From contig OX393549.1 in NCBI GenBank assembly GCA_947650365.1, positions 22,531,572 to 22,595,571 on the forward strand: DNA of 64,000 nucleotides, written 5' to 3'. Below are positions 25,530 to 64,000 of the stretch, piece by piece. The notes below the pieces were generated by a model. It saw only the letters and a program-made list of their open reading frames with translations, did not search any database and was not told the DNA's origin. The stretch's first letter is position 1. Every line of letters starts with the position of its first letter. The stretch is from Chamaelirium japonicum (lineage: Eukaryota > Streptophyta > Magnoliopsida > Liliales > Melanthiaceae). The position numbers and the translations under genes are program-made.

Positions 25530-25700
25530 CACTACACCAAATTAAGGAAAATACCATATAAATAAACGACGGTTTTAAACAGTAGTTATTTAAACGATGA
25601 GCGTAGTATATAACGATAGTCGAAGACTGTCATATATTATCCATTAAATAGTTTTAAAATAGACTCGCTGACGCAGATTAAATGGTTATAGACCATCGTT
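25530..25700. mobile_element. CACTA-like transposon terminus, copy B
   Basis: CACTACACCAAATTAAGG at 25,530 with degraded subterminal GACGGT-type motifs. Counterpart of 8,167. No right-hand end recognised. Confidence 0.4.
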
Positions 25701-27130: not shown

Positions 27131-28555
27131 TCATGCGATTTCTATTTAATATAGGTGTTAAAGTCACCCCTTTAACACATAGATGTACCCCTCCCCCTCC
27201 AAGATGTAGTTGGGGGTGGGGGGTACACTTAGACTCCTCTTATAATCTGCTTCATAATAAAGGATCCTATAATAGTCGATCCCCTCCTAGCAATGAGACT
27301 CATTCTATTTTGGCCACACATATGCGAGTATTAAAAGTCACCCTTATGACACATAGATGTACCTCCCCAATGATGTAGGGGGGTATACATGGACTTCTCT
27401 CATAATCTGTTATATAAATAAGGGTCCCACAATAGTGAGAGCCCTCCTACCTATCAGACTCTTTATATTTGTCCACACACATGTAGGTGTTAAAGTCACC
27501 CATTTGATACAAAAATATACCCCCTATGATGTAGTCGAGGAGAGGGGTATGCTTGGACCCCTTTTATAATTTTCTATATGAATAAGGATCCCACATTAGT
27601 AGGGCCCCTTCTAGCTATGAGACTCTTTATATTTGGCCACACACATGTGGGTACTAAAATCACCCCTTTAACATATAGATGTACCCCCTAATGTTATAGT
27701 CGAAGGGGGTACATTTGGACTCCTCTCATAATTTGCTATATGAATAAGCATCCCATAATAGTGGGATATTTCCTATCTATGGAACTCTTTATATTTTGGC
27801 CACACACATACGAGGGTTAAAGTCACCCCTTTGACACAATGATATACCCCCATGATATAATCATAGGGGGAGTTACACTTGGACTCTCCTGGTAATAATC
27901 TGCTACTTTAATAAGAATCCTATATGCAATAAGGGGGTCAGCTATGAGACTATTTATAATTTGCCACACTCAAGAAGATGTTAAATTTACCTCTTTGATA
28001 TATAGATATACCCCCCATGATGTAGTCTAAAGGGGTACACTTGGATTGCTCTCAGAATCTGCTATATGAATAACGATCCCACAATAATGGGACCCCTCCT
28101 AGCTATGAGACTCTTTATATTTTGCCCACATACATATGGGTGTTAAAGTCACCCTTTTGACACAAAGATTTATCCCCCATGATAAGTGGGGGGTACACTT
28201 GGACTTCTCTCATAATCTTTCTATATGAATAATGATCCCACAATAGTAGGACCCCTCTTAGCAATGGTACTTTTTATATTTTGGCCACACATACGAGTCT
28301 TAAACCAATCATTTGATAAATAGATATACCCCCAGGATGTTTGGGGGGGGGGGGGGTGTTGCACTTGGATTTCTATCATAATCTGCTACATGAATAATGT
28401 TCTCACAATCAGGGGATCCCTCATAGCGATGAGACCCTTTATATTTTAGCCACATACATACCGGTGTTAAAGCTACCCCTTTAACACATAGATGTACCCC
28501 CCAATAATATAGTTTTTTTTTTGGGGGGGGGGGGGTATGTGGGTGCAAATATTGT
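27131..28555. repeat. Tandem array of 160-180 bp units, copy B
   Basis: About nine units homologous to 9,030-10,283 plus 13,254-13,430, without the LTR insertion. Unit marks fall near 27,157, 27,331, 27,488, 27,655, 27,818, 27,976, 28,141, 28,302 and 28,466. Long G runs at 28,344-28,357 and 28,523-28,534 may be assembly-sensitive. Confidence 0.85.
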
Positions 28556-41363: not shown

Positions 41364-41485
41364 CTAATATCCCATGTGTTAAGTTTCATCCGCTAGGGTT
41401 TGCATGGCCAGGAATAGAAGACTTCTTTATCCTATTTGAGCTTCTATGATATAACTGCATATAATATTGTTTTCCTTTTCTATAG
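41364..41485. other. Junction of truncated gypsy element and defensin 3 intron
   Basis: Up to about 41,430 the sequence belongs to neither recognised partner. From CTATTTGAGC (about 41,431) it matches the intron 3' part of defensin 2 (21,157 on), with the acceptor TTTTCTATAG ending at 41,485. The gypsy 3' LTR and the defensin exon 1 are both missing here. Confidence 0.65.
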
Positions 41486-41655
41486 AGATGGGGATGACGA
41501 TGGTGGAGACGAGGACTTGCGAGTCACCGAGCCAGAATTTCAAGGGCCCGTGCTTGAGGTCCAGCAACTGCGCCACTGTCTGCCAAACGAAGCACTTCTC
41601 TAGAGGCGAGTGTCGTGGCTTCCGCCGTTGGTGCTTCTGCACCAACAAGTGCTGA
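41486..41655 (+). pseudogene. Plant defensin 3, exon 2 only (exon 1 lost)
   Basis: Exon 2 alone, with an intact acceptor and stop. It encodes a 47-residue mature-type domain with all eight cysteines at 3, 14, 20, 24, 34, 41, 43 and 47 and a gamma-core variant [11 protein letters not shown]. Net charge is about +7, the highest of the seven. The domain has no disabling change, but the signal-peptide exon is absent: upstream lies the truncated gypsy element, and no exon 1 was found at its other side near 29 kb. The 3' UTR still matches defensins 1 and 2. It could be expressed only if a new upstream exon were acquired, for which there is no evidence. Confidence 0.85.
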
Positions 41656-42532: not shown

Positions 42533-44950
42533 TATTGAGATTCGAGACCCTCGCGTAGCGGAACACGACAAGCATAGAAGCACCACGGCGGAGACGACCA
42601 CCGACAATATCGAGATATAGAAAGAACAAGCATAACACCCAGAAGTTCCGGCATCGAGCGATCAATGGATTCACTAGTATGGGAAAAACCCAAGATCAAT
42701 TACAATTGTCTTTATCCAATCCCTCATACACCCACAAAGAGATCCCACCTTGCGAGAAGAGAAACCGCAGCCCTACACCCCTTGGAACAAGAAGAAACCC
42801 TTCCTGAAACCCCACCGGTCTTCAATGGTTTCCTCTCCCTCTTTCTTGGTGATGGCTACCTTCTAATCTCTCCGTTAGATCTCTCTTGTGCCTTTGAGAA
42901 AATTCATGATTCCCTAGGTTCGTCGTAGGACCTCCCTTTTATAGGGTTACATTTGTATCCGACTTGGGGAAGGAGTCTCATGAGACCAAAATGCGTCACC
43001 CGTGTGCTGCCAGCCATAGTTGTGCGCATGACCTGGGGAGATCGTGCGCATGACCCGACCCGTGTTCTCGCCTGACTTTTCTGTCGATGCCAGTCATGTG
43101 CACGACTCTTCCTAGCCAACCCTTCCTTGCTCCCGAAGCTCCGTCTTTTGCCATTTCTTTGTGCACGAACCTTGACAATGTCCACCTTGGCTTCATAACA
43201 AGACGTGAGCATCTCTATGGATCTAATCACCATCTTTGCACCATAAATCCATCTCCTGATCATTGTCTCTGCCTTTTCCCCCACACCGGGAGCCCAATCA
43301 CCAAACTTGATGATTGCCCAAGCCTTTTGACTTCGTCGACCTCCTGATCAACCTCGCCCCTGAGCGTGCTCCACCAGCAACCTTGTTTTTTACCGAACAC
43401 CATGCATGCACCGCCGCTCTCCCAACTACTGTCATGATCAAGGAAGCTCCTACTTTCGCCCATCGACGATCCCGTCGTAAACCATGGCCCTTGATTTGCT
43501 TTGTGACACTTCCCACGCCCATCGCTCCCGAGCCATTGCCCGTCGGCCAACGCTCGAATATCTTCTGCACCCTACTGCACCACAGGCATGCCCGCAGCTG
43601 AGTACACCACCACCACGACCGTCGTCACCTTTTTTCCGCCATCAGTCGATAGCCACCGCACCCTGGTAGAACGTAGGTGTGCCCACGGCCGTGCCTGCCG
43701 CTACAGTGCCCACATCGCCCGTCGGCGATCCGCACCGGTTCCCGTCGACACCTCCACCAGTCGCTTATCGGTAACCCATATCAGTCCGCTCGTTGGCGGT
43801 TGAACACGATGCTGTCGGTGACTCCCGTGCCATCAAGGTGCTCCCCCTCGATCCAAGCACCCGCACGTACCGTGCCATTGTGGTCTACCACCACGATCCG
43901 TCAAGCCAGGGAGTAGGTGCCTTGATAGCACCCGCCTTCCGGCTAACGCTTTCGGTATCTCGAACCACCCCGAGGGAGGAGGTACTCAACCGCAACCTCC
44001 CCCTCGAAGTCTCCTTCGAAGACCCGAATCTCCTGGAGAGCACTGGATCGTGCCTCTCCCCATCATGCCCTTCGCCTAAGCACCGACCATCGTTGCGAAC
44101 AAGCCTCCCAGGGGGAGGTGCTATACCGCAACCTCTCCCCGAGCCTTCTGCATCCTTCTTGAGTGTCGCTCTCGAGTCCTCCGTTGCACCGCGTGTCGCG
44201 CGTGCGTCTCGGCTTCCTTTCTCAGTTTACCTTGCTTTACGCCATCAAACTAAAGCCTCCCCAGATCCCCCAACAATAGCTCTAATACCAATTTATTGAA
44301 ATTCGAGGTCCTCGTACAATGGAACACGACGAGGGTAGAAGCACCACAGTAGAGATGACCATCGACAAGACCGAGATTATAGAAAGAACAAGCAGAATAC
44401 CCAAGAAGTTCTGTCAATGACCGATCGATGAATTCACTAGTACGGGAAAAACATTAGATCAATTACAATTGTCTTTACCCAATGCCTCATACACCCACAA
44501 AGAGATCCCACCTTGAGAGAAAAAAAACCACAGCCCTACACCCCTTGGAACAAGAAGAAACCCTTCCCAAAGTCCCACCGGTCTTCGATGATTTCCTCTC
44601 CCTCTCCCTTGATAATGGCTACCTTCTAATCTCACCCTTAGAAAATGTAGGTCAAAGCGTGTCACCCATGTGCTACCAGCCATAGTTGTGCGCACGACCC
44701 GACCCATCTTCTCGCCCGACTTTTCTGTCGATGCCAGTCGTGCGCAAGACTTGACAGTCATGCGCACGACTCTTCCTGGCCGACCCTTCCTTGCTCCCGA
44801 AGCTCTGTCTTCTGCCTGTTTATTCGCGCATGAACATTGGAGTTGTATGTGGCTTGTTTGGAGCCACATACAAAAGATCGTCCTTCATGTCTTCTGAATG
44901 TTTATTCGCGCACGAACATTGGAGTTGTATGTGGCTTGTTTGGAGACACA
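42533..44950 (-). mobile_element. Short non-autonomous LTR element (minus strand)
   Basis: Two LTR-like copies in the same orientation, about 42,533-43,210 and 44,294-44,950, bracket about 1.1 kb. Next to the right copy lies the complement of a primer-binding site of the type TTGG(C/T)ATCAGAGC (near 44,283). The LTRs match the better-preserved copies in the palindrome (54,999-55,709 and 59,842-60,551). The internal sequence has only small, overlapping frames (43,087-44,299) without gag, protease or RT motifs, so the element could not move by itself. The right LTR has a 79 bp tandem duplication (units near 44,817 and 44,896) and is cut by the next element. Confidence 0.65.
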
Positions 44951-47857: not shown

Positions 47858-49330
47858 TGATGCAAAACAAATACAGGTGGACAGGAAATCAGTAGTTTAA
47901 TTGTACTAGCAGTGTTTCGCTATGAATTAAAAGTTTCAGGTAGGAAGTTTTATTCAAGCCATTAGCAGGGAATAATGGGTTTTAAAGAAACTACTCGCAT
48001 CAGGCAGTTCGATCTCAGTTCTAAGAATTACAATGAATAATGCTTAACTTAAACGGCAAGAGTCTATCCCGCAATATCAAATGCTAATGAACTTAACAGG
48101 CAGGTAAGGACGCACAACCTCACGAAGATGGATAGCAGTCGGCACAGATAATATACTGGAGATTTGACTGATGGAACATAAAGGTACCTTGCTGGTAGGG
48201 AAGTCCTTACTGGGGAAGTGATGGCGGTGCGGGGACACCAACGTCACAAGCCACGCGCTCCTCCATGCTCTCTCCTTCGTCCAAGGAAGGGGAAGTTGAT
48301 GTCGAGGTATCCGTCACCGTCTGGGATCAGGTCGTGATCCCCATCGGGGTCAGCCATACATACATAGCGGAGGGTATCGAGAATACGGGTTCGGAGCTAT
48401 GGAGATCGGGTCGGGTCGGGTTGGCTGCGAAGGGAAGAGAGGGGAGGGGCAAAGGGGTCGGGTCGGGTGGCTATGAAGGGAAGAAAGGGAAGAGGCAGGG
48501 GGGGTCAGTTGGGTCGGCTGTGAAGGGGGGGGGGGGAGGGGAGCGGGGAAGGGCAGAGGGGCTGGGCGCAGGTCGGCGGTCGGAGAGGAGGCGAGGGCCA
48601 GTCGCAGTGGCGGCGGGCTGGGATCGGGTCGGCGGGCGGAGAGGGGGCCGGGGGCCGACCGTAGGGTGGCAGCGGGGCTCGTGCCGGCGCAGGAGGAGGG
48701 CGGCAGGGGTGAGGTGGGTCGACGGGCGGAGAGGAGGGTAGGATCGGGCCGGGCTCGGGTCTAGGGCACAACAAAGAGGGGGGGGAGGGAAGAAGGGTGG
48801 GGGATCGGGTAGGGCTCGGGCTGCCGAAAAGAGGGGAGGAGAGGAGAGGGGGAAGGGGCACGGGCTGGTGGCCGACGGAGGGGAAAGAAGGGGAGGCGGG
48901 GCTGGGCGCAGGGGAGAGGAGGAGGGGTCGGGGCGGGTTGGGTCGAGGTAGAGCGCAGGGAGACGGGGGCGGGGCGGGGCCTGGTCGGGGCGGCAGCACA
49001 GGGAGAAGGGACGGGTGGCTGGTCGCAGGGAGGCGACGGGCTGGGCGTGGGGAGAGGAGGGGATGAGGTAAGGGTTGGGCTAGGGTTTCACACGCCTAGT
49101 ACCCACCTAGGGTTTCACACGCCTAGGGCTTGAGATTGGGGCTTCACACACCTCACCCTGGTTTCTCTCAACACGCATGTGGAGGAAAAACAAAATTTTA
49201 TTTCATTATTCAGTGCCTCAAATGAAGAGACAAGGGCCTTTATAAAGGCGTACAACGACAGGTCCACACGGCCAATAGGCGAGGTGGGACTAAACACAAG
49301 TGCAAAAGATAAAGACACAAAAACAACATA
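47858..49330 (-). mobile_element. LTR of gypsy element 2 (probable), containing a G-rich tract
   Basis: Its 3' end (plus-strand TGATGCAAAAC at 47,858) is well placed by the primer-binding site. The other boundary is uncertain, near 49,330 where a second pol end begins. The minus strand has TATAAAGGCCC near 49,240 and AATAAAATTTTG near 49,200, as in an LTR. 48,390-49,070 is strongly G-rich on the plus strand; Pro/Arg/Gly-rich ORFs there (48,265-48,741, 48,505-48,999) are composition artefacts. Confidence 0.5.
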
Positions 49331-49430
49331 GAAATGAGACGAAACAAATGATCACATCCACAAACTAGGCTGGCTCCTCCTGCGTTGGTACACATGCCAC
49401 GGGTCCGACTCGAGGTAGATGTCCGCATCA
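49331..49430 (-). pseudogene. Second copy of the gypsy 2 pol end
   Basis: About 100 bases nearly identical to 44,953-45,060, including the complement of the segment encoding SDSWHVYQ-type sequence. Together with the LTR to its left it implies two elements in tandem sharing one LTR, the right one cut off at 49,430. Confidence 0.65.
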
Positions 49431-50219
49431 GAAGATCAATTCATACTTTTTAGTGCTAAAAAATTGCGGACATTGAAAAACAATAGACTGAAAAACGACG
49501 ACTATTGCTCATCCTTTTTCAACAGTATTGATGTAGTGGTCCTGCCTGAGATTGGGAGGAAGGGGGTATCCGTAGCCGAATGCGCCAGTGGAACACTCCT
49601 CTACTGCAAAGTGCTTGTGATCGGATTGTGCACCCCATGTTGAATGCCAGTGAGTATATATTTGGAAACAACATCTTGAACGAGAGCTCACCTAGCCAGA
49701 ATTTCTCCCAAAATCGGATTTTCTATTTATTGACCAAGACAAGCTTGTTCACATTCCGTTAGAGATCTGTCACCTTCCAGATCATCTTCCAAACGTGCGA
49801 GATTCTACCCAAAGACCTACTATTGGCTTGGAGGGGGGAAATCCTATGGAGTATCTAGAGAGGAGGTTGTTCCTTTAGGAGCCTCCTTCCTCTCTCTGCG
49901 GTCTCCTACTATCATTTACCTAGCATGGAAATGTTTAATCTCCTTAGGTCGATGACCTCCAATCCTCCTAAGGTCGTCGGTAGACACACTTCATCTCCTG
50001 AGATTGTAGGAGCCTCCTGTGCCACCCACTCCTCTCCACAGGAAAGTTTTTCTGATGTTGAAAATGTGCTCTATTACCTAAGACAAGAAACAGAAGAAAG
50101 TCAAGTAGTACGAAGGGATAGAGGATAGCACCGAGTTGACCAAGAACAGTCTCCCCCTGAGAGATAGGAATTTTCCTTGACATCCCTCTAGTCTAGCCTC
50201 GATTCTCTGAATGTGCTCC
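49431..50219. other. Unclassified sequence
   Basis: No gene is supported. Small ORFs (49,419-49,643, 49,925-50,128, 49,968-50,183) lack recognisable domains. It may be part of the LINE that follows. Confidence 0.3.
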
Positions 50220-50950
50220 TCCTAGTCTTCACTCTTGAAGGCCGTGTCACTAACCGAGATCCCCAGCTATTTCATTGGTAGAGTTGCAATTCGACAATTC
50301 AACAACCGAGCAATGGAAGAGCCAAGCTCATCGTCTAACCCCATTAAGTAGATGTTACTCTTCATAATATTTATCTTCAATGCCAATGTTAACTCTAGAC
50401 CATAGAGCAGCACTTTCAGAGTGGTAAGCTTGAACAGGCAGGCCTCACAAAAAAGTAGGGAATCATCAACATAATGTATCGACGTCGTCCACCGTCTATC
50501 GCCGATGCTTTGGAGAACGGCCTCAACATTAGCCTTCTTGATTAAAGCATAAAACAAGTCTACAATTAAGATGAAGTAGTGACAGAGGGTAGCCTTGCTT
50601 CAATCCTCTATAGACTTTGAACTCTTGATCTACCCGATACTCCATTCACCAAATGGGCTATCTAGAAAGAGGTAAGGATGCCTCTCACCCATAATACACA
50701 GGCCAAGGATAAGCCTTTAGTCGCCATGATCTCTAGCAAGAAGTTCCACAATATCTGGTCAAACACCTTTTTAAAATCCAACCTCAAGAGTAGACCGTCT
50801 CTGTTTGATACTTTCAAGAGGAAGATAGTTTCTTGTGCCGCTACCACACTATCTAGAATCATTCTCTCTTTCATAAATGTCATCTCTGTTTGATTATATC
50901 TGGAGCAGATTGTCTCCATTCGATTCTTTCACTATGTGCCGCCACCATAG
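50220..50950 (-). pseudogene. LINE ORF2 reverse transcriptase fragment
   Basis: The minus strand shows MKERMILDSVVAAQE and LLRLDFKKVFDQILWNFL (50,662-50,919), then, after a break, HYVDDSLLFCEA with the catalytic box and KINIMKSNIYLMG (50,267-50,557). This is the L1-type order. The stretch between the two, which should hold the QGDPLSP box, is shifted out of frame. A different LINE subfamily from the one at 1-960. Confidence 0.75.
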
Positions 50951-51591
50951 TGAGAGATTCAAGCCTTTTATTTTGCTACAAACTAAACTTCGATCATCTT
51001 TTTTTTTTTCTCTACATTTTTCTTTGTCTGTTTATTTTTGAGAAATCCCTCTCAGTGAATGGGGGCCGGGGGGGGGGGGTTCAACCTAGACCCCAACTAG
51101 TATATTAATAATAAAAGAATTTATATTGGGAAAAGGATGAAGGAAAAACAAAGACAGACTAGGTACAAAGATCAATTATTTTCCTTTGTTAGTGGATCCA
51201 CTATTTTCTTAAATTTAAAAGTCATTCTTTTTTTATAGATCGGTGGTTGTTTGAAAACCTTCCAATGCAAGTAATGGCCCACTTCAGGCTCGGATTAATC
51301 CCTCTGGGAGTGAAGCCCGACCCACAAGGCAATTCCCACTTCATTTCTGGGTAAATTGAGGGGAGGAAGAGTTTTTTTTAGAGAGAAATTAGCATCCCGC
51401 ATTTTGGGAACGGGTTAGGAGGACCCCTACTAGTGTATAAATATGGCAATAACTCTAAGGTAGAGTTACAAATAAATAGACCCAAGACCACCATCTAAAG
51501 TAGCATCGGCAGACATGTTTGCACCAAGAACATCACCCAAAAACACGTACCACTATACCTACTAGCCAACCTCTAACTAATTAATCGTCTC
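50951..51591 (-). mobile_element. LINE 3' ends and SINE-like copy
   Basis: Near 51,034-51,062 lies the complement of a LINE tail (GAGAGGGATTTCTCAAAAAT), like the one at 18,225. At 51,226-51,343 is a minus-strand copy of the SINE-like element of 20,095 with its A-rich end at the left. A second LINE tail complement sits near 51,375-51,400. No gene; a C/G run near 51,061-51,079. Confidence 0.55.
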
Positions 51592-51905
51592 CCAAGATAT
51601 AGCGAGCCCCCCTAGCAATCAGAAAAAGGTTTCCCACTGGTCTATACTGGTTCCTGAAGACCCGCGCATTTCTCTCCAGCCAAATAGTCCATATCAGGCT
51701 GGAAACACTCTTGTCTCACATGGTCATCTGCAGCTATGGTATATGATCATGTCGCCACACCGTCCACAAAGTCAATGGAAGAACGGAGGGAGGAAGAAAT
51801 CTAAAAAACTGCGAGGAACTTAACCCATAAGATCGTAATATGGTGACACATTAGGAAAATGTGATCAATAGTTTCCGGGAATGAACAGAAAGAGGGGGAG
51901 GAAGA
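51592..51905 (-). pseudogene. LINE ORF2 C-terminal fragment (left arm)
   Basis: The minus strand contains, with frame changes, sequence like the cysteine/histidine C-terminus of L1 ORF2 (IDHIFLICHH, then SSIDFVDGVAT and MDYLAGEKC). Its mirror is at 63,690-64,000. Confidence 0.6.
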
Positions 51906-52178
51906 GTTGAACCCACAACCTCCTCACAAAAGCATCAGTTGCTTTGCCAACTCTCCTATCCTCTGGTGGGTACTCTGCTTTATATCCCCTATTGGGTTGC
52001 AAAAAATCATCCTTAATGTTAGAGAAAATGACCGTCCCCAGGACTTTAGAGAGATGATTGAGTCTTTGGAAGGTCGCTCGGCAAGGAGAGGATCTTCGTG
52101 CTTTGGAAGAAATTATTTGTAAAATATTTGTAGCTTTCCCTCCTCATCTGAGAGATTTCTCATCAAAAAAAAAAAACC
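51906..52178 (+). mobile_element. LINE 3' tail fragment (left arm, outer)
   Basis: Carries a 71-codon frame ending near 52,122, then CTCATCTGAGAGATTTCTCA and an A run at 52,167-52,178, the tail type shared by LINEs in this window. Near-identical copies: 56,170-56,443 in the same arm, and mirrors at 59,108-59,380 and 63,410-63,690. Confidence 0.65.
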
Positions 52179-52414
52179 ATCATTCATGTTTCCAAGTACA
52201 TTGAAAAGAGCTAAACAAAGGCTAACGGAAGATCGAAGTATTAAACTAAATTTATTACGATTAAACTTTTCACTCAGTAGAGATTGGAATCATAAAACAT
52301 AAGTCACAAAAGCCAAGCGCCAAAGGCACTCATTATTTTAAGAAGCACACTAAAAGCAAGATAACAAGCGCATCATCATCATCATCTTCAACAATAAGCT
52401 GGGTGAGGATTCCA

Positions 52415-53129
52415 TCAGCAATCTTTGGTGCAGAAGCATCGGCGGCGGAAGCCATTGCACTCGCCTCCAGTGAAGCCCTCTGTTAAGCACACGGTGGCGC
52501 AATTGGTGGAACTCACGCATGGACCATCGAATCTAGTGCTCAGTGCCTCACAAGTCCTCGCATCCACTGTCCCCATCCCAATCTCTATGCAAGAGAGAAA
52601 CAATATAGCCAGTTAGACTCTAGAATCACAAATATCATATATAGGTTGCTAGTGTAATTTAAACAGGAGGACAAATAGATCTTGCTCCTCCTAAGATGGG
52701 CATGCTGAAGTAAGCTCTTTTTTTTTTTTGCTGAACTAGTTTTTTTGCTAGACTAGTCAAAGGACATGTCGCTAGAGCAAGGGGTGAAGGAGGTCCGGAT
52801 ATCGAAACGGGGAAGGTAGCGTAGTTACTGTTTTATTTAAATTCTATAATCCTGTGGACATGACATCAACGTCCAGGATTTGCATGCACAAACAAGGCAT
52901 ATTGGGCTTGAGAGAAAGTTTGCTCCACAACTAAGTGGGATTTCTCATGAAAAGAAATGAGAGAAAGTTTGCTCCCTAGTGTCCATTCTGGAAGTCAAAC
53001 ATGGAACCTCTACAACATAGTGAAATGCAATAAAAGCTGGGGAGACGAGAGGGGAAAAGAACCAGAGGCGGTGATCAGAAGGAACAAGAGGAAGAAGAAG
53101 GACGGAAGCATGCGCTGAGAAGGCTCCAT
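52415..53129 (-). CDS. Plant defensin 4 (class I, secreted), two exons, left arm outer
   Basis: Exon 1 is 53,129-53,063: start codon then MEPSQRMLP and a hydrophobic run of Phe/Leu. The GT-AG intron is 53,062-52,585 (478 bp, phase 1). Exon 2 is 52,584-52,415. The preprotein is 78 residues; the mature 47-residue domain has the eight class I cysteines at 3, 14, 20, 24, 34, 41, 43 and 47. The gamma-core is [11 protein letters not shown], with Asn where defensins 1-3 have Arg, and an Asp replaces Lys at position 11; net charge is only about +1. A TATA motif lies at 53,183-53,190 (complement) and a poly(A) signal at 52,251-52,256 (complement). Its mirror is defensin 7, which differs at three residues encoded by exon 2. 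The gene reads away from the palindrome axis. Confidence 0.9.
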
Positions 53130-53182
53130 CAATCGCCACCTGAGGTGTGTGGTTGTGGAGAAAAGGAGATGGGTGCTTGTTC

Positions 53183-53190
53183 TTTATATA
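53183..53190 (-). promoter_or_regulatory. TATA box of defensin 4
   Basis: TATATAAA on the minus strand, 53 bases before the start codon. Confidence 0.65.
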
Positions 53191-53873
53191 GAAGACTTGG
53201 AAGGCAGTAGTTCGGAACACATAAAGTACTGAATCTTGATGTAATTAAAGCATTGAAAAATTATTTTTAAGGATAAGACCAAATATATCAGATGGGATAT
53301 AGTGTGCCAGAAATGATAAGTAATCGAGAACACTTGTCGGCTACCCTGTGATCGAGCTAGCACTTGGTGAGGTGGCGTGTAAGGATTGGTGAAGAGCCGG
53401 GCCCAACTTATCAGAACAAAAAAAAACTGTTAAAAGATTTTGACTGCATGGGATACCAAATCATCCTACTTTATCAGGTTTTTTAGTGGGGAAGTTTGAC
53501 ATAAGACATTTTTGAGAAGATGACTTTTAGTTCCGGGACATGTTAATTTTGAAATATAGAAATATAGCTCAAGTCCCTCGAGACGAATATATTTTCTTTA
53601 TCAAGACGAATGGATATTCTTTCTAAAGAAATGAATGTATACTTATGATGCCCTACGGCTAATATTGCAAAATAGTTAAGTATCTATACCTAATTTGTCA
53701 TCCTTTGTTTATAGTGATCTCTCTAATGTACTCACCATTATGGCTGAATTGCACCATGCTTTTGATGCAAGCTGACACGAGCCACTAAAATCTGGACCGA
53801 GTAAGATTCACCCATCAGGGTGTTTCCATTGGAGGCTTGGTGCGAGTCACTGGTTGAATTGGACGGTTATGAT
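53191..53873. other. Defensin 4 upstream region (left arm)
   Basis: No gene or repeat family recognised. Mirror of 61,677-62,396. A net 37 bp of length difference between the arms falls here. Confidence 0.45.
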
Positions 53874-54429
53874 TAGGGGTGGCAATTGGTCGGGTTCTGG
53901 TCGGACCCTACCCCTATCCATACCCATACCCATTCGGGTCTGGTAGGGTCCATACCCTACCCATACCCATTCGGTTAGAAGAGGGTCCATACCCGATCCA
54001 TACCCAATCAGGTTTCGGGTTTCGGGTATGAGTTGGATATAATTTATCTATTTTTTTCATCATATATTTAATTATTTGAGGAGAAAAATCAAGATATCAC
54101 AATGCAATGTTAATAAGTTCTTTTGGTTTCTTATTACAATGGTTTTAGTAGAGTATAGGTTTCGATATAGATATGGGTTCGGTTAGAATTTGGGTATATA
54201 ACAATGAGTTTAGAGTTGAACCGTATTATCTAGTATACACAAGTTAGAGTGACAATCGAGTTTCGGGTACGGGTATTGAGGTACCCATACCCATACCCAA
54301 AAGTTAATCAGGTAGAGTTTTCATATCCATACCCTATCCAAACCATGTTTTGGATACAAAATTTGTACCGATACCTAATGTTTTGGGTCGGGTTTCGGTC
54401 AGGTTTTCAGAGTCCATTGCCACCCCCTA
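53874..54429 (+). mobile_element. hAT-type MITE (left arm)
   Basis: 556 bp with terminal inverted repeats TAGGGGTGGCAAT and ATTGCCACCCCCTA and an 8 bp flanking repeat GTTATGAT / GTTCTGAT (one mismatch), as hAT elements make. Inside are runs of CATACC / GGGTATGGGT-type repeats. No transposase. The ORF at 54,249-54,449 is a product of these repeats. Exact mirror at 61,121-61,676. Confidence 0.8.
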
Positions 54430-54998
54430 GTTCTGATGTTGGGTCGTAGAAGTAAGAAAACTTATTTGTGAGGGTTAAAAATAACTATATGTTTATGTTA
54501 TCTCGTTCTTTAAAATTTAAAACTTTTAACAAGTGATATAAACATTACTTAATCCCACCCAACCCAACCCACTAACTTCCTCTAATAGTACTACCCGAGC
54601 ATGGCAATTTGTTCTCAATTGGGCTCATGTGGCATAGTGCAAGTTAAAGTCAGGTTGAGTGAGGCTAGGGTTTGAGGGTTCTACCATTCGGATTGAGCTT
54701 GGGCTGACCTCTAACCTTACACATTCCTCTTGAGTTACACCCTAAGATTAGGGTGAGAATTTTGAATTCATATTCTTATTCTATAACCTCCTATGTTTGT
54801 CTATGCTATTGTAATTGTTCCATCTTGCTCATCATACTCAACATATCATTTCTTTACAAATTGAAGTTGAGTGGGAGCAACTACAGCAACAAGCTTAAGC
54901 CATACTTTGACATCTGGAGATAAATCAAGAACAAGAAAGCAATGGCGAGAGTCGTCGGATGAATTATGAGCATTGATCAACTCGATTAGAGTTTAGAT
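54430..54998. other. Unclassified sequence (left arm)
   Basis: AT-rich, no gene or repeat family recognised. Mirror of 60,552-61,120. Confidence 0.4.
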
Positions 54999-56160
54999 TG
55001 TTGAAGATGTGGCTCAAAACAAGCTGCATGCAACTCCAATGTTCATGCGCGAAGAAACGGCGGAAGACATAGCTTCGGAAGTAAGGAAGGATCGGCCAGG
55101 AAGAGTCGTGCACATGACTGTCAGGTCGTCCGCTTGATTGGCATCGATAGAAAAGTCGGGTGAGAAGACGGGTTGAGTCGTGCGCATGACCTACCCAGGT
55201 CGTGTGCACAACTGTGGCTGGCAGCACATGGGTGACGCGTTTTGGCATGCGTTTTCTCGTGGGACTCCTTCCCCAAGTCGGATACGAATGTAACCCTATA
55301 AAAGGAAGGTCCTAGGACGAACTTAGGGAATCATGGATTTTCTCAAAGGCACAAGAGAAACCTAAGGGAGAGATTAGAAGATAGTCATTACCAAGAGAGA
55401 GGGAGAGGAAATCATCGGAGACCGGTGGGGCTTCGGGAAGGATTTCTTCTTGTTCCAAGGGATGTAGGGCTGCGGTTTCTCTTCTCTCAAGGTGGGATCT
55501 CTTTGTGGGTGTATGAGGGATTGGCTAGAGACAATTCTAATTGATCTCGAGTTTTCCTCATACTAGTGAATCCATCGATCGATCGTTGCCGAAACTTCTT
55601 GGGTGTTTTGCTTGGTCTTTCTATTATCTCGGTCATGTCAGTGGTCGTCTCCACCGTGGTGCTTCTAACCTTGTCGTGTTCCATTGCGCGAAGGCCTCGG
55701 ATCTCAACAAATTGGCATCAGAGCTATTGTTGGGGGATCCGGAGAGGCACTAGTTCGATGACGAAAGGCAAGGTACAGACCGAGAAAGGAGGCCGAGATG
55801 CACGCACGGAACACGGTGCGATGGAGGACCCGGAAATGGCACTCAAGAAGGAAGCCATAGGCTCGGGGAGAGGTAGCGGTATAGTAGGGCTTATTGGCAA
55901 TAACGGCCGGTGACCTAGGCGAAGGGCACGACGGGGAGAGGCATGGTCCAGTACTCTCCGAACGATTTGGGTTTTCGAAGGAGTCTTTGACGGGGAGGTT
56001 GCGGTCGAGCACCTCCTCCCTCGGGGTGGTTCGAGATACCGAAGGCGTTAGCCGGGAGGCGGGCGCTGTCAAGACACCTACTCCCCGGCTTGACGGATCG
56101 TTGTGGTAGACCGCGATGGCACGGTACGTGCGGGTGCTTGGATCGAGGGGGAGCACCTCA
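54999..56160 (+). mobile_element. Non-autonomous LTR element: LTR plus start of internal region (left arm)
   Basis: LTR 54,999-55,709 (711 bp, TGTTGA...CAACA) followed by a primer-binding site TGGCATCAGAGC at 55,713-55,724. Internal sequence continues to about 56,160 and is then cut, without a second LTR. Same family as 42,533-44,950. A 150-codon minus-strand ORF (55,704-56,156) has no recognisable domain. Confidence 0.75.
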
Positions 56161-56450
56161 ATGGCACGGGAGTTGAACCCACAATCTCCTCACCAAAGCA
56201 TCAGTTGCTTTGCCACCACTCCTATCCTCTGGTGGGTACCCTCTTGTATATCTCCTGTTGGGTTGCAAAAAATCATCCTTAATTTTAGAGAAAATGACAG
56301 TCCCCAGGACTTTATAGAGATGATTGAGTCTTTGGAAGGTCGCTCGGCAAGGAGAGAATCTTCATGCTTTGGAAGAACTTATTTGTTAAATTTTCTGAGC
56401 TTCCCCTCCTCATCTGAGAGATTTCTCACCAAAAAAAAAAAACCATCCTT
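56161..56450 (+). mobile_element. LINE 3' tail fragment (left arm, inner)
   Basis: Second copy of 51,906-52,178, ending in CACC and an A run at 56,430-56,441. It and the following defensin exon are a partial duplicate of the outer gene region. Confidence 0.65.
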
Positions 56451-56683
56451 CATGTTTCCAAGTACAATGAAAAGAGCTGAACAAAGGTTAACAAAAGATC
56501 GAAGTTTTAAACTAAACTTATTACGATTAAACTTCTCACTCAGTAGTAGAGATTGGAATCATAAAACATAAGTCACACAAGCCAAGCGCCAAAGGCACTT
56601 ATTATTTTAAGTAGCACACTAAAAGTAAGATAACAAACGGATCATCATCATCATCTTCAACAATAAGTTGGGTGAGGAATCCA

Positions 56684-56853
56684 TCAGCAATCTTTGGTGC
56701 AGAAGCATCTGCGGCGGAAGCCATTGCACTCGCCTCCAGTGAAGCCCTCTGTCAGGCACATGGTGGCGCAATTGGTGGAACTCACGCATGGGCCATTGAA
56801 TCCACGGCTCAGTGCCTCGCAAGTCCTTGCATCCACTGTCCCCATCCCAATCT
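56684..56853 (-). pseudogene. Plant defensin 5, exon 2 only (left arm, inner)
   Basis: Exon 2 with intact acceptor (CTTGCATAG) and stop; eight cysteines conserved, gamma-core [11 protein letters not shown], net mature charge about +2. The intron is kept for 280 bp (to 57,133) and then breaks off into an LTR-like sequence starting TGTAACATCCC; exon 1 and the promoter are absent. Protein identical to defensin 6 in the other arm. Likely not translated as a secreted peptide. Confidence 0.85.
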
Positions 56854-57133
56854 CTATGCAAGAGAGAAACAATATAGCCAGTTAGACTGTAGAATCACAA
56901 ATATCATATATAGGTTGCTAGTGTAATTTAAATAGGAGGACAAATAGATCTTGCTCCTCCTAAGATGGGCATGCTGAAGTAAGCTCATTTCTTTTTTGCT
57001 AGACTAGTCAAAGGACATGTCACTAGAGCAAGGGGTGAAGGAGGTCCGGATATCGAAACGGAGAAGGTAGCATAGTTACTGTTTTTATTAAATTCTATAA
57101 TCCCGTGGACATGACATCAACGGCCAGGATTTG

Positions 57134-58417
57134 TGTAACATCCCAAAAATACTAATGATTTTAATCTACTATAATAAGAAATTTTTTTATACAAATTTAA
57201 AACAAGAATCAGACTGCGCCATTGCATCCGGCTCGTCGAAATGATCAAAAACCGTATAAAAACTTTTATGTTTTAAGTAAATTTAAAATATTTAAAAATT
57301 AAAGAAATAAAATTAACCAAGGTAGGATTTGAACCATGGACTCATTGGTAAAATCTTATATCCACCCCCTCTAACAAGAAAGTCCTTACAATTGTTCAAT
57401 CTAAACTACAAAAATAAAATATATGTAGTGAGAGGGGGGAGCCCAAGAGACAACCAGCTATAGACCTTTGGGTTCTGACCGGATGAAAACAATCAAACCA
57501 GGGAGGCTCAATTGAAGTAATAAATACAATAATGGACCGATTTTATAATTAAGACCCTGGCCTCTTGGTATTCCGAAAAAGGCCTATTAAAACCCCCCTA
57601 ATCTCTATAGTTCTGCACTCAAACCCATTTAACTCGAAAATCATGCCCTCTCTATCCACTTGACCCAACCTTGCCAGCCCCCTTTCGCCGCCTGTAGCCA
57701 CCTCCGACGCCCGCAGTCGCCGCTGGTCGCCGTCACTCGCCGCTGGTCACCGCCGCTATTGCCGTTGTCGATCACCGCCGGTCGCAGCAGTCACCGTCAG
57801 TCGCCGCCGTCGGTCATCCTTTTTTGGCCAAAAACCGATAGGCCAATAATGTTTAAATTTATTTTATTTTGGGCTTAAGCCCACTAAAAGATGGGTCAGC
57901 CCATTTTGTTATGGGCTGGGCTCACTAAAATAGTTTTGGGCCAAAGCCCATTAAACAAAATAATCATCCATTTTTCGGAATACCAAGAGGCCAGGGTCTT
58001 AATTGTAAAATCGGTCCATTATTGTATTTATTACTTCAATTGAGCCTCCCTGGTTTGATTGTTTTCATCCGGTCAGAACCCAAAGGTCTATAGCTGGTTG
58101 TCTCTTGGTCTCCCCCCTCTCACTACATATATTTTATTTTTGTAGTTTAGATTGAACAATTGTAAGGACTTTCTTGCTAGAGGGGGTGGATATAAGATTT
58201 TACCAATGAGTCCATGGTTCAAATCCTACCTTGGTTAATTTTATTTCTTTAATTTTTAAATATTTTAAATTTACTTAAAACATAAAAGTTTTTATACGGT
58301 TTTTGACTATTTCGACGAGCCGGATGCAATGGCGCAGTCTGATTCTTGTTTTAAATTTGTATAAAAAAATTTCTTATTATAGTAGATTAAAATCATTAGT
58401 ATTTTTGGGATGTTACA
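57134..58417. mobile_element. LTR-like sequence forming the palindrome centre
   Basis: Begins TGTAACATCCCAAAAATACT at 57,134 and ends with its exact complement at 58,417. 57,134-57,580 and 57,971-58,417 are inverted copies; the 390 bp between (57,581-57,970) is unique and holds a GC-rich CGCCG-type stretch (57,670-57,810). TGTAACATCCC is typical of the start of some gypsy LTRs, but no complete LTR, primer site or coding region is present. Both outer ends sit in defensin intron sequence (CAAATCCTGG). Confidence 0.6.
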
Positions 58418-58697
58418 CAAATCCTGGCCGTTGATGTCATGTCCACGGGATTATAGAATTTAATAAAAACAGTAACTATGCTACCTTCTCCGTTTCGATA
58501 TCCGGACCTCCTTCACCCCTTGCTCTAGTGACATGTCCTTTGACTAGTCCAGCAAAAAAGAAATGAGCTTACTTCAGCATGCCCATCTTAGGAGGAGCAA
58601 GATCTATTTGTCCTCCTATTTAAATTACACTAGCAACCTATATATGATATTTGTGATTCTACAGTCTAACTGGCTATATTGTTTCTCTCTTGCATAG

Positions 58698-58867
58698 AGA
58701 TTGGGATGGGGACAGTGGATGCAAGGACTTGCGAGGCACTGAGCCGTGGATTCAATGGCCCATGCGTGAGTTCCACCAATTGCGCCACCATGTGCCTGAC
58801 AGAGGGCTTCACTGGAGGCGAGTGCAATGGCTTCCGCCGCAGATGCTTCTGCACCAAAGATTGCTGA
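58698..58867 (+). pseudogene. Plant defensin 6, exon 2 only (right arm, inner)
   Basis: Mirror image of defensin 5 with an identical protein, intact acceptor and stop, eight cysteines, and no exon 1. The intron breaks at 58,418 against the central LTR-like sequence. Any outward transcript from the centre could in principle splice into this exon, but it would lack the defensin signal peptide. Confidence 0.85.
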
Positions 58868-59107
58868 TGGATTCCTCACCCAGCTTATTGTTGAAGATGA
58901 TGATGATGATCCGTTTGTTATCTTACTTTTAGTGTGCTACTTAAAATAATAAGTGCCTTTGGCGCTTGGCTTGTGTGACTTATGTTTTATGATTCCAATC
59001 TCTACTACTGAGTGAGAAGTTTAATCGTAATAAGTTTAGTTTAAAACTTCGATCTTTTGTTAACCTTTGTTCATCTCTTTTCATTGTACTTGGAAACATG
59101 AAGGATG

Positions 59108-59390
59108 GTTTTTTTTTTGGGTGAGAAATCTCTCAGATGAGGAGGGGAAGCTCAGAAAATTTTACAAATAAGTTCTTCCAAAGCATGAAGATTCTCTCCT
59201 TGCCGAGCGACCTTCCAAAGACTCAATCATCTCTATAAAGTCCTGGGGACTGTCATTTTCTCTAAAATTAAGGATGATTTTTTGCAACCCAACAGGGGAT
59301 ATACAAGAGGGTACCCACCAGAGGATAGGAGTGGTGGCAAAGCAACTGATGCTTTGGTGAGGAGATTGTGGGTTCAACTCCCGTGCCATT
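59108..59390 (-). mobile_element. LINE 3' tail fragment (right arm, inner)
   Basis: Mirror of 56,161-56,450, with the T run at about 59,108-59,118 as the complement of the tail. Confidence 0.6.
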
Positions 59391-60551
59391 GAGGTGCTCC
59401 CCCTCGATCCAAGCACCCGCACGTACCGTGCCATCGCGGTCTACCACAATGATCCGTCAAGCCGGGGAGTAGGTGTCTTGACAGCGCCCGCCTCCCGGCT
59501 AACGCCTTCGGTATCTCGAACCACCCCGAGGGAGGAGGTGCTCGACCGCAACCTCCCCGTCAAAGACTCCTTCGAAAACCCAAATCGTTCGGAGAGTACT
59601 GGACCATGCCTCTCCCCGTCGTGCCCTTCGCCTAGGTCACCGGCCGTTATTGCCAATAAGCCCTACTATACCGCTACCTCTCCCCGAGCCTCTGGCTTCC
59701 TTCTTGAGTGCCATTTCCGGGTCCTCCATCGCACCGCGTTCCGTGCGTGCATCTCGGCCTCCTTTCTCGGTCTATACCTTGCCTTTCGTCATCGAACTAG
59801 AGCCTCTCCGGATCCCCCAACAATAGCTCTGATGCCAATTTGTTGAGATCCGAGGCCCTCGCGCAATGGAACACGACAATGTTAGAAGCACCACGGTGGA
59901 GACGACCACTGACATGACCGAGATAATAGAAAGACCAAGCAAAACACCCAAGAAGTTTCGGCAACGATCGATCGATGGATTCACTAGTATGAGGAAAACT
60001 CGAGATCAATTACAATTGTCTCTATCCAATCCCTCATACACCCACAAAGAGATCCCACCTTGAGAGAAGAGAAACCGCAGCCCTACATCCCTTGGAACAA
60101 GAAGAAATCCTTCCCGAAGCCCCACCGGTCTCCGATGATTTCCTCTCCCTCTCTCTTGGTAATGACTATCTTCTAATCTCTCCCTTAGGTTTCTCTTGTG
60201 CCTTTGAGAAAATCCATGATTCCCTAAGTTCGTCCTAGGACCTTCCTTTTATAGGGTTACATTCGTATCCGACTTGGGGAAGGAGTCCCACGAGAAAACG
60301 CATGCCAAAACGCGTCACCCATGTGCTGCCAGCCACAGTTGTGCACACGACCTGGGTAGGTCATGCGCACGACTCAACCCGTCTTCTCACCCGACTTTTC
60401 TATCGATGCCAATCAAGCGGACGACCTGACAGTCATGTGCACGACTCTTCCTGGCCGATCCTTCCTTACTTCCGAAGCTATGTCTTCCGTCGTTTCTTCG
60501 CGCATGAACATTGGAGTTGCATGCAGCTTGTTTTGAGCCACATCTTCAACA
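59391..60551 (-). mobile_element. Non-autonomous LTR element: LTR plus start of internal region (right arm)
   Basis: Mirror of 54,999-56,160. LTR 59,842-60,551; primer-binding site complement GCTCTGATGCCA at 59,827-59,838. The ORF 59,394-59,846 differs from its mirror at three residues in 150. Confidence 0.75.
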
Positions 60552-61120
60552 ATCTAAACTCTAATCGAGTTGATCAATGCTCATAATTCATCCGACGACT
60601 CTCGCCATTGCTTTCTTGTTCTTGATTTATCTCCAGATGTCAAAGTATGGCTTAAGCTTGTTGCTGTAGTTGCTCCCACTCAACTTCAATTTGTAAAGAA
60701 ATGATATGTTGAGTATGATGAGCAAGATGGAACAATTACAATAGCATAGACAAACATAGGAGGTTATAGAAAAAGAATATGAATTCAAAATTCTCACCCT
60801 AATCTTAGGGTGTAACTCAAGAGGAATGTGTAAGGTTAGAGGTCAGCCCAAGCTCAATCCGAATGGTAGAACCCTCAAACCCTAGCCTCACTCAACCTGA
60901 CTTTAACTTGCACTATGCCACATGAGCCCAATTGAGAACAAATTGCCATGCTCGGGTAGTACTATTAGAGGAAGTTAGTGGGTTGGGTTGGGTGGGATTA
61001 AGTAATGTTTATATCACTTGTTAAAAGTTTTAAATTTTAAAGAACGAGATAACATAAACATATAGTTATTTTTAACCCTCACAAATAAGTTTTCTTACTT
61101 CTACGACCCAACATCAGAAC
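60552..61120. other. Unclassified sequence (right arm)
   Basis: Mirror of 54,430-54,998. No gene seen. Confidence 0.4.
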
Positions 61121-61676
61121 TAGGGGGTGGCAATGGACTCTGAAAACCTGATCGAAACCCGACCCAAAACATTAGGTATCGGTACAGATTTTGTACCCAA
61201 AACATGGTTTGGATAGGGTATGGATATGAAAACTCTACCCGATTAACTTTTGGGTATGGATATGGGTACCTCAATACCCGTACCCGAAACTCGATTGCCA
61301 CTCTAACTTGTGTATACTAGATAATACGGTTCAACTCTAAACTCATTGTCATATACCCAAATTCTAACCGAACCCATATCTATATCGAAACCTATACTCT
61401 ACTAAAACCATTGTAATAAGAAACCAAAAGAACTTATTAACATTGCATTGTGATATCTTGATTTTTCTCCTCAAATAATTAAATATATGATGAAAAAAAT
61501 AGATAAATTATATCCAACTCATACCCGAAACCCGAAACCTGATTGGGTATGGATCGGGTATGGACCCTCTTCTAACCGAATGGGTATGGGTAGGGTATGG
61601 ACCCTACCAGACCCGAATGGGTATGGGTATGGATAGGGGTAGGGTCCGACCAGAACCCGACCAATTGCCACCCCTA
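61121..61676 (-). mobile_element. hAT-type MITE (right arm)
   Basis: Mirror of 53,874-54,429, again 556 bp, flanked by ATCAGAAC and ATCATAAC, the complements of the left-arm target repeats with the same single mismatch. This shows the MITE was present before the arms were duplicated. Confidence 0.8.
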
Positions 61677-62396
61677 ATCATAACCGTCCAATTCAACCAG
61701 TGACTCGCACCAAGCCTCCAATGGAGACACCCTGATGGGTGAATCTTACTCGGTCCAGATTTTAGTGGCTCGTGTCAGCTTGCATCAAAAGCATGGTGCA
61801 ATTCAGCCATAATGGTGAGTACATTAGAGAGATCACTATAAACAAAGGATGACAAATTAGGTATAGATACTTAACTATTTTGCAATATTAGCCGTGGGGC
61901 ATCATAATTTGATATATTAGCTAAGGTCACTACAAGTATACATTCATTTCTTTAGAAAGAATATCCATTCGTCTTGATAAAGAAAATATATTCGTCTCGA
62001 GGGACTTGAGCTATATTTCTATATTTCAAAATTAACATGTCCCGGAACTAAAAGTCATCTTCTCAAAAAGGTCTTATGTCAAATTTCCCCACTAAAAAAC
62101 CTGATAAAGTAGGATGATTTGGTATCCCATGCAGTCAAACTCTTTTAACAGTTTTTTTTTTTTCTGATAAGTTGGGCCCGGCTTTTCACCAATCCTTACA
62201 CGCCACCTCACCAAGTGCTAGCTCGATCTACCATCACACAGGGTAGCCGACAAGTGTTCTCGATTACTTATCATTTCTGGCACACTATATCCCATCTGAT
62301 ATATTTGGTCTTATCCTTAAAAATAATTTTTCAATGCTTTAATTACATCAAGATTCAGTACTTTATGTGTTCCGAACTACTGCCTTCCAAGTCTTC
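61677..62396. other. Defensin 7 upstream region (right arm)
   Basis: Mirror of 53,191-53,873, slightly longer. No gene; ORF 62,215-62,403 has no domain. Confidence 0.45.
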
Positions 62397-62404
62397 TATA
62401 TAAA
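62397..62404 (+). promoter_or_regulatory. TATA box of defensin 7
   Basis: TATATAAA, 53 bases before the start codon, followed by a pyrimidine-rich leader. Confidence 0.65.
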
Positions 62405-62457
62405 GAACAAGCACCCATCTCCTTTTCTCCACAACCACACACCTCAGGTGGTGATTG

Positions 62458-63172
62458 ATGGAGCCTTCTCAGCGCATGCTTCCGTCCTTCTTCTTCCTCT
62501 TGTTCCTTCTGATCACCGCCTCTGGTTCTTTTCCCCTTCTCGTCTCCCCAGCTTTTATTGCATTTCACTATGTTGTAGAGGTTCCATGTTCGACTTCCAG
62601 AATGGACACTAGGGAGCAAACTTTCTCTCATTTCTTTTCATGAGAAATCCCACTTAGTTGTGGAGCAAACTTTCTCTCAAGCCCAATATGCCTTGTTTGT
62701 GCATGCAAATCCTGGACGTTGATGTCATGTCCACAGGATTATAGAATTTAATAAAAACAGTAACTACGCTACCTTCCCCGTTTCGATATCCGGACCTCCT
62801 TCACCCCTTGCTCTAGCGACATGTCCTTTGACTAGTCCAGCAAAAAAACTAGTCCAGCAAAAAAAAAAAAAGCTTACTTCAGCATGCCCATCTTAGGAGA
62901 AGCAAGATCTATTTGTCCTCCTGTTTCAATTACACTAGCAACCTATATATGATATTTGTGATTCTAGAGTCTAACTGGCTATATTGTTTCTCTCTTGCAT
63001 AGATATTGGGATGGGGACAGTGGATGCGAGGACTTGTGAGACACTGAGCACTAGATTTGATGGTCCATGCATGAGTTCCACCAATTGCGCCACCGTGTGC
63101 CTGACAGAGGGCTTCACTGGAGGCGAGTGCAATGGCTTCCGCCGCCGATGCTTCTGCACCAAAGATTGCTGA
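62458..63172 (+). CDS. Plant defensin 7 (class I, secreted), two exons, right arm outer
   Basis: Exon 1 62,458-62,524 (signal segment with [10 protein letters not shown]), GT-AG intron 62,525-63,002 (478 bp, phase 1), exon 2 63,003-63,172; preprotein 78 residues. The mature domain of 47 residues has the eight class I cysteines and the gamma-core [11 protein letters not shown]. Compared with defensin 4 it has Asp for Glu at the splice-spanning codon, Thr for Ala at mature position 5 and Met for Val at 15. Net charge is about +1. Start chosen at the ATG that gives the same N-terminus as defensin 4; a preceding in-frame TTG is not used. Poly(A) signal AATAAA at 63,337-63,342. The gene reads away from the axis. 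Confidence 0.9.
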
Positions 63173-63409
63173 TGGATTCCTCACCCAGCTTATCGTTGAA
63201 GATGATGATGATGATGATGATGCACTTGTTATCTTGCTTTTAGTGTGCTTTTTAAAATAATGAGTGCCTTTGGCACTTGGCTTTTGTGACTTATGTTTTA
63301 TGATTACAATCTCTACTGAGTGAAAAGTTTAACCGTAATAAATTTAGTTTAATACTTCGATCTTTCCTTAGCCTTTGTTCAGCTCTTTTCAATGTACTTG
63401 GAAACATGA

Positions 63410-63690
63410 AGGATGGTTTTCTGTTTTTGGTGAGAAATCTCTCAGATGAGGAGAGGAAGCTACGAATATTTTACAAATAAGTTCCTCCAAAGCACGAAGA
63501 TCCTCTCCTTGTCGAGCGACCTTTCAAAGACTCAATCATCTCTCTAAAGTCCTGGGGACGGTCATTTTCTCTAACATTAAGGATGATTTTTTGCAACCCA
63601 ACAAGGGATATAAAGCAGAGTACCCACCAGAGGATAGGAGAGTTGGCAAAGCAACTGATGCTTTTGTGAGGAGGTTGTGGGTTTAACTCT
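63410..63690 (-). mobile_element. LINE 3' tail fragment (right arm, outer)
   Basis: Mirror of 51,906-52,178; its A run is replaced by TTTTCTGTTTTTGG, so the tail is more eroded here. Confidence 0.6.
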
Positions 63691-64000
63691 TCCTCCCCCT
63701 CTTTCTGTCCATTCCCGGAAACTATTGATCACATTTTCCTAATATGTCACCATATTACGATCGTATGGGTTAAGTTCCTCGTAGTTTTTGAGATTTCTTG
63801 CTCCCTCCATTCTTCCATTGACTTTGTAGACGGTGTGGCGACATAATCATATACCATAGTTGTAGATGACCTTGTGAGACAAGAGTGTTGCTAGCCTGAT
63901 ATGGACTATTTGGCTGGAGAGAAATGCTCGGGTCTTCAGGAACCAGTGTAGCCCAGTGGAAAACCTTTTTCTGATTGCTAGGGGGGCTCGCTATATCTTG
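63691..64000 (+). pseudogene. LINE ORF2 C-terminal fragment (right arm)
   Basis: Mirror of 51,592-51,905, with the same broken L1 ORF2 C-terminal sequence, cut by the window edge. Confidence 0.6.

Follow-up and report, generated by a model that had tools for sequence, protein, structure and literature searches.

The locus examined here raises the question of how two closely matching stretches of opposite orientation came to face each other within a row of plant defensin genes. The window, a stretch of 64,000 nucleotides from Chamaelirium japonicum (GCA_947650365.1, contig OX393549.1, positions 22,531,572 to 22,595,571), had been described in an earlier note as ending in a near-perfect palindrome, which would be either recent, maintained by conversion or an assembly artefact. 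Does the palindrome exist, and which of these histories does it record?

Structure and limits of the palindrome

The assembly does contain the palindrome. BLAST of the window and its flanks confirmed an inverted duplication of about 8 kb per arm, set within a row of plant antimicrobial-peptide (defensin) genes on one chromosome, with two high-identity inverted arms (97.1% over 8,211 columns) flanking a unique spacer. The whole arms differ by 173 substitutions and 13 indels; within the window, the inverted match (51,593–57,580 against 64,000–57,971) has an identity of 97.7% over 6,032 columns, with 92 substitutions and 6 indels. The features of the palindrome, in window coordinates that continue past its end, are as follows.

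49,434–57,580, minus strand: left arm (L), from BLAST of the window and flanks
52,415–52,584, minus strand: left outer defensin exon 2, Pfam PF00304
52,547–52,899, no strand: interval of the step in arm divergence from 4.0% to 0.8% (best point 52,837), in the intron or exon 2 start of the left outer gene
53,063–53,129, minus strand: left outer defensin exon 1, hydrophobic, signal-peptide-like
56,684–56,853, minus strand: left inner defensin fragment, exon 2 only
57,134–57,970, plus strand: first 837 bp of an LTR-like element, a dispersed repeat starting TGTAACATCCC, spanning the left arm end and the spacer
57,581–57,970, no strand: unique spacer between the arms, 390 bp, which other genomic copies of the LTR-like element carry in collinear order with the left arm
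57,971–66,176 (in-window 57,971–64,000), plus strand: right arm (R), from BLAST of the window and flanks
57,971–58,417, minus strand: inverted copy of the first 447 bp of the LTR-like element, in the right arm
58,698–58,867, plus strand: right inner defensin fragment, exon 2 only, with the same sequence as its left counterpart
59,381–60,551, plus strand: LTR-like repeat segment of the right arm, with its mirror at about 54,999–56,169 and relatives at 42,535–44,869 and in unit U3
62,458–62,524, plus strand: right outer defensin exon 1, with TATATAAAG about 60 bp upstream of the ATG
63,003–63,172, plus strand: right outer defensin exon 2, Pfam PF00304

The arms had been put at 6 kb or more, with pairing still continuing at base 64,000 and a separation of 390 bp, and all of this is borne out: the right arm ends 2,176 bases beyond the window, and the spacer has no second match within it. 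The outer limits, which the earlier note had left to be found, lie at 49,434 on the left, adjoining a 118-bp repeat fragment (49,313–49,430), and at 66,176 on the right, beyond which array-type sequence continues, with 61,107–66,812 matching the neighboring unit U3 (102,575–108,236) at 89%. The outer arm ends are joined to unlike sequences on the two sides. The sum of paired coordinates, said to be constant, is 115,551 for 57,134 with 58,417 and for 57,580 with 57,971, and 115,550 for 54,999 with 60,551 and for 53,874 with 61,676, but indels move it to 115,593 at 51,593 with 64,000.

The two outer defensin copies are complete predicted two-exon genes, each composed of a signal-peptide-like exon and a defensin exon. 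An exon 1 was looked for and not found for the two inner copies, so that the claim of four defensin copies holds for two genes, while the other two are headless exon-2 fragments that are, as had been seen, identical to each other over 170 nt. PF00304 (plant defensin, gamma-thionin) scored above cut-off in all seven exon-2 peptides given, and PF01097 (arthropod defensin) also just passed in four of the seven. Among solved sequences, the defensin Egk (PDB 7c2p), which by its name we take to be from oil palm, scored highest against the mature peptide of this cluster. Exchange between inner and outer copies was rejected, the corresponding pattern occurring at 0 of the 88 gap-free variable sites among the four exon-2 units.

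Among the 40 of 3,420 candidates that were scored, five B-defensin units match most of a 3,067-base query from the outer arm part, all on one chromosome. Within this set L is the sole inverted unit, and R is the unit closest to it (95%, compared to 87–89% for the others). Since 40 of the 3,420 candidates were scored, a further outer copy may still exist.

Two levels of divergence between the arms

The description as near-perfect averages two divergence levels. In the outer arm part 135 of 3,399 sites differ (4.0%), compared to 38 of 4,743 (0.8%) in the inner part. For the in-window part, the likelihood gain of a step between the two levels was matched by none of 500 shuffles, and the interval of the step overlaps 52,882, the end of the stretch common to the inner and outer exon-2 units. 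When assigned by comparison to U3, the 135 outer differences fall on the two arms in nearly equal number (63 on L, 65 on R, 5 ambiguous and 2 at a gap in U3). At substitution rates of 6.5e-9 and 1.3e-8 per site per year, the in-window outer part would be about 1.7–3.5 My old and the inner part about 0.3–0.6 My. The inner part appears much younger than the outer, which suggests later copying of the two halves onto each other. The inner 0.8% could reflect one later copying event; its longest identical run is ordinary (P 0.57), but the inner differences are mildly clustered (variance/mean 1.76, P 0.02) and the inner part may therefore stem from more than one event.

Neighboring units of a tandem gene array provide an internal control for mutation rate, which allows exchange or re-copying to be told from mere youth within a single assembly. 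The arms lie 8.2–8.3% from U3 in the outer part (3,325 sites) and 8.1–8.4% in the inner part (1,592 sites), and the ratio of the L–R distance to the U3 distance is 0.48 (0.41–0.56) outer and 0.11 (0.06–0.18) inner. A further 1,684 inner sites carry 10 differences between L and R (0.6%) and 182 between L and U3 (10.8%). This control takes in 3,276 of the 4,743 inner sites, exclusive of the exon-2 unit of the inner part and of the central element. Over the sites compared, the distance to U3 has no step, which speaks against mutation rate or constraint as the source of the two levels. The inner arms are more alike than the outer at equal mutation rate, as exchange between arms would leave them, and a second fold-back would give the same result.

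Histories of the locus

We think it fairly probable, judging from these sequence comparisons, that the locus was built in at least two steps: an older inverted duplication arose in the defensin array, and homogenisation or re-copying between the arms later affected its inner part. In the older step, a B-defensin unit would have been copied in inverted orientation next to its native counterpart, with the right arm native and the left arm the copy. In the younger step, the inner 4.7 kb including the centre would have been homogenised between the arms, either by multi-kilobase gene conversion, accompanied by a crossover through which the spacer was inverted, or by a second fold-back repair. In the latter case the end of the left arm would have reversed direction within the LTR-like element and served as its own template up to the point where homology joined it to the right arm. 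At some stage the inner gene would also have lost its 5′ half, so that two headless exon-2 copies remained in back-to-back position. The identity of the native arm, the order of events, the mechanism of exchange and the timing of exon 1 loss are all points that we infer.

A dispersed LTR-like element contains the palindrome centre. In each of the six other copies examined, the start of the element and the spacer follow one another on a single strand, collinear just as they are in the left arm, and two of these copies give a single unbroken alignment up to the end of the spacer. The spacer is therefore contiguous with the inverted arm and not with the arm in native orientation, as either a second fold-back or a crossover would leave it. 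A short inverted repeat as the seed of a fold-back was rejected, since by eye at most about 3 nt are shared at the junction in comparison to copies L003 and L004. With L003 as query, the rest of the element was not found near the palindrome in 144 kb; other L003 matches in this stretch are 75–86% pieces at 82–88 kb. Elsewhere, C12 carries two element copies 7 kb apart in the same direction, which are about 92% alike over the first 544 columns.

A single recent inverted duplication (0.8%) could give the same picture if the copying strand switched template at about 52.8 kb, for example to another haplotype 4% away, in which case the outer part would be old in appearance only. We regard this as unlikely. 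One switch would leave just such a single sharp step, and the step interval includes the end of the shared exon-2 stretch at 52,882. However, no donor paralogue about 4% away was present among the 40 of 3,420 candidates scored, and a left arm newly copied from a native right arm should have the spacer contiguous with the right arm, whereas it is contiguous with the left.

An assembly artefact, in the form of a chimeric or fold-back read or of two haplotypes joined head to head, seems to us quite unlikely. An arm difference of 0.8% is within the haplotype differences of outcrossing plants. Furthermore, amplified long-read libraries are described as containing many false palindromes (PMC6218980). 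Fold-back of one molecule does not fit: it predicts arms equal within read error and little or no spacer, and is not expected with two divergence levels, the substitutions and indels counted above, a 390-bp spacer and outer ends that join unlike sequences. The fetched 144 kb contain no N, and the contig is 137 Mb long. Against two haplotypes joined together, all of these arguments have less force. Of the three origins first offered, a mix of recent duplication and conversion fits the two levels and the rate control.

It is very improbable that an existing palindrome received its centre (57,134–58,417) through insertion of a foldback transposon whose terminal inverted repeats are 447 bp long. 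The centre does begin with TG, end with CA and have self-complementary ends, but the six other copies match the element start once, collinear with the spacer and without an inverted second end, and no target-site duplication was seen by eye, the mirror aside. As the cause of the whole palindrome such a transposon was rejected, given that the mirror runs 7.7 kb past the element on each side and the other copies have no second end. Finally, selection or a low mutation rate acting without exchange is hardly credible as what keeps the inner part alike, even if exon 1 of the outer genes lies in this part together with their upstream region, since inner and outer distances to U3 are similar (8.4% and 8.2%), the further inner stretch is 10.8% from U3 with 0.6% between the arms, and the control opposes it for all the inner sites that it takes in.

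Comparison to known palindromes and inverted repeats

Palindromes whose arms exchange sequence are already known, most familiarly from sex chromosomes, and the present one is a small, datable plant case. No plant-defensin palindrome appeared among the papers listed in a literature search; its matches to defensins and inverted duplication concerned human chromosome 8 by title. The case suggests how inverted duplication and retroelements can leave members of an array headless.

A regulatory role is improbable, although the anatomy of the locus is consistent with one. Once transcribed, the centre would form a stem about 447 bp long, and LTR-driven transcription through it could produce a long hairpin linked to defensin exon 2, from which small RNAs tune the array, while exchange would keep the hairpin paired.

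The arms of the human Y palindrome P6 are reported to be homogenised by exchange, with tracts of 2,068 bp on average and more than 9 kb at maximum, and with rare inversions (PMC3723533). These tract sizes and inversions would fit a homogenised inner part of 4.7 kb and a flipped spacer, but P6 is far larger and sex-linked, and here the arm is homogenised in part only. The palindromes described from the willow W chromosome lie in a sex-determining region, and their arm segments range from about 14 to 73 kb (PMC7023750). Like the present case they are gene-bearing palindromes of a plant, with fragments of LTRs in the arms as well as the spacer and with conversion confined to part of the arms; conversion was shown there via a second species, whereas here it is inferred from one assembly.

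Inverted repeats of paralogous pairs in Caenorhabditis likewise combine divergent paralogues, a short spacer and high arm identity, and conversion was proposed as one cause (PMC1803023). Their structure is described as conserved between species, whereas ours is known from one assembly and its inner pair has no exon 1. The soybean I locus (CHS1-3-4, GmIRCHS) is also an inverted repeat of clustered family genes, and GmIRCHS includes a truncated copy (PMC13051633, PMC6710647). According to these accounts, GmIRCHS has a tail-to-tail layout, a gap of 78 bp and a foreign promoter, and its dsRNA was detected; siRNA was reported from the 27-kb repeat. In contrast to this tail-to-tail arrangement, the defensin fragments described here lie head-to-head and are known from DNA alone.

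Arms of the palindrome and their defensin genes

An earlier note on this DNA claimed a large inverted match at the right end of the window, and this match is real: 51,593–57,580 pairs with 64,000–57,971 at 97.7% identity over 6,032 columns, with 92 substitutions and 6 indels. The 390-bp spacer between the arms (57,581–57,970) has no other match within the window. The window edge falls inside the right arm. By genome search the window was placed on a 137-Mb contig (C1) of the 1.52-Gb assembly, and 20 kb of left flank and 60 kb of right flank were added; the resulting 144 kb, which contains no N bases, was compared with itself. The full arms span 49,434–57,580 and 57,971–66,176 and are 97.1% identical over 8,211 columns.

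All seven exon-2 peptides given to the search scored above the cut-off for PF00304, identifying them as plant defensins, and their best-scoring solved sequence was 7c2p, Egk. Within the palindrome, signal-peptide-like exons are found only at the two outer copies.

53,129–53,063, minus strand: signal-peptide-like exon 1, left outer copy
62,458–62,524, plus strand: signal-peptide-like exon 1, right outer copy

We read the outer genes as encoding 78-residue precursors with a phase-1 intron, presumably spliced. Of the inner copies exon 2 alone was found, an exon-1 search of the 144 kb having turned up no match next to them. Upstream of exon 2, the inner unit is cut at 57,133/58,418 by TGTAACATCCC, and the outer unit continues at the equivalent position as CATGCACAAAC. 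The inner exon 2 pair is identical across 170 nt. Between the outer coding sequences there are six differences, all of them in exon 2. At 59,380/59,381 (mirror 56,169/56,170), the inner defensin tail abuts a truncated LTR-like segment and the outer copies differ, perhaps reflecting an older deletion common to both arms.

Elsewhere in the window, a direct segmental duplication of ~10 kb (285–10,266 and 18,252–28,352; pieces mostly 88–94% identical, one 84%) carries one defensin per copy, at 2,947 and 21,241. In exon 1 of the latter (20,996–21,100), neither the splice site nor the exon end present at 2,755 is seen, and this copy may be broken. At 41,363–41,640 lies a defensin exon 2 (41,518) whose similarity to other A-type copies starts at 41,363 (A, B, U2 and U3 are names coined in this analysis); no exon 1 was found beside it in the 144 kb searched, and judging by the sequence it also looks headless. 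Arrays of a ~164-bp repeat, with ~7–8 copies each that are ~70% alike, occupy 9,111–10,281 and 27,218–28,501. A weak 5S rRNA match at 26,485–26,602 (41.1 bits, gathering score 38) is perhaps a 5S-derived repeat. The retroelement at 32,277–39,575 matches gag, RNase H and integrase, each in its own frame, and is presumably of the Ty3 type by domain order.

Two levels of divergence between the arms

Over the full arms, left and right differ at 135 of 3,399 sites (4.0%) in the outer part and at 38 of 4,743 (0.8%) in the inner part, which adjoins the spacer. The step between these levels is best placed at 52,837 (interval 52,547–52,899), and none of 500 shuffles of the in-window part matched the observed gain. 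As a rate control we used U3, a neighboring B-defensin unit to the right of the palindrome. The left arm differs from U3 by 8.2% outside the step and 8.4% inside, and from the right arm, across the U3-compared sites, by 4.0% outside and 0.9–1.0% inside. A further inner stretch of 1,684 sites holds 10 differences between the arms and 182 between the left arm and U3. Together these comparisons span 3,276 of the 4,743 inner sites, all of them outside the central element and the exon-2 unit of the inner copies. Because the distance to U3 is no smaller inside the step than outside, the inner likeness, where tested, points to a later shared ancestor rather than slower mutation. When the 135 outer differences were assigned against U3, 63 fell on the left arm and 65 on the right, with 5 unresolved and 2 in U3 gaps. 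Inner-part differences are mildly clustered (P 0.02), and the longest identical run there is ordinary (P 0.57).

The probable native arm, the centre and a proposed history

The array to the right of the palindrome consists of a recurring set of A-type defensin, LTR-like segment and B-type unit. Among the best 40 of 3,420 candidates, at least five units match most of the 3,067-base outer query, all on the palindrome's chromosome; the left arm is the sole inverted one, and the right arm is closest to it (95%; other units 87–89%). Array-type sequence also crosses the right limit of the palindrome (61,107–66,812 versus U3 102,575–108,236, 89%), and a repeat fragment of 118 bp adjoins the left arm where it ends, at 49,434. 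Since only the left arm is inverted, the array crosses the right limit and the left arm stops at a repeat fragment, we take the right arm, on this arrangement of sequence, to be native and the left its inverted copy.

The LTR-like element that starts with TGTAACATCCC at 57,134 has copies scattered through the genome, a 401-bp query giving at least 84 matches including the window's own two (best 40 of 227 candidates). Six further copies were examined, and in every one the start of the element and the spacer are collinear and share a strand, which is also the arrangement in the left arm; two copies (L003 and L004) align unbroken to the spacer end and four (L005–L008) in pieces. By this collinearity, left arm and spacer together form the ordinary element, and 57,971–58,417 is the inverted copy. 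Compared by eye with L003 and L004, the junction has at most ~3 nt of shared sequence.

The orientation of the spacer matches the inverted arm and not the native one. A single event copying the native right arm predicts a spacer contiguous with that arm, which is not what is found, so a second event is needed and an origin of the palindrome in one event is unlikely. That the palindrome is an assembly artefact seems to us slightly less likely still. The history we favor, and consider probable, is one in which an older inverted duplication, now 4.0% diverged, would have been followed by homogenization or re-copying of the inner 4.7 kb and the centre, now at 0.8%. The second event would be either an arm-to-arm crossover that flipped the spacer or a second fold-back of a left arm already inverted.

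Comparison with known palindromes and inverted repeats

Palindromes are described as unstable and prone to secondary rearrangement (PMC10766186). In human palindrome P6, conversion tracts average 2,068 bp, the longest exceeding 9 kb, and inversions occur but are rare (PMC3723533); by those figures, the 4.7-kb inner part is within the known range. In willow palindromes, limited conversion is described, confined to part of the arms (PMC7023750). Inverted repeats of clustered genes, truncated ones too, can trigger RNA silencing, as the soybean I locus shows (PMC13051633, PMC6710647).
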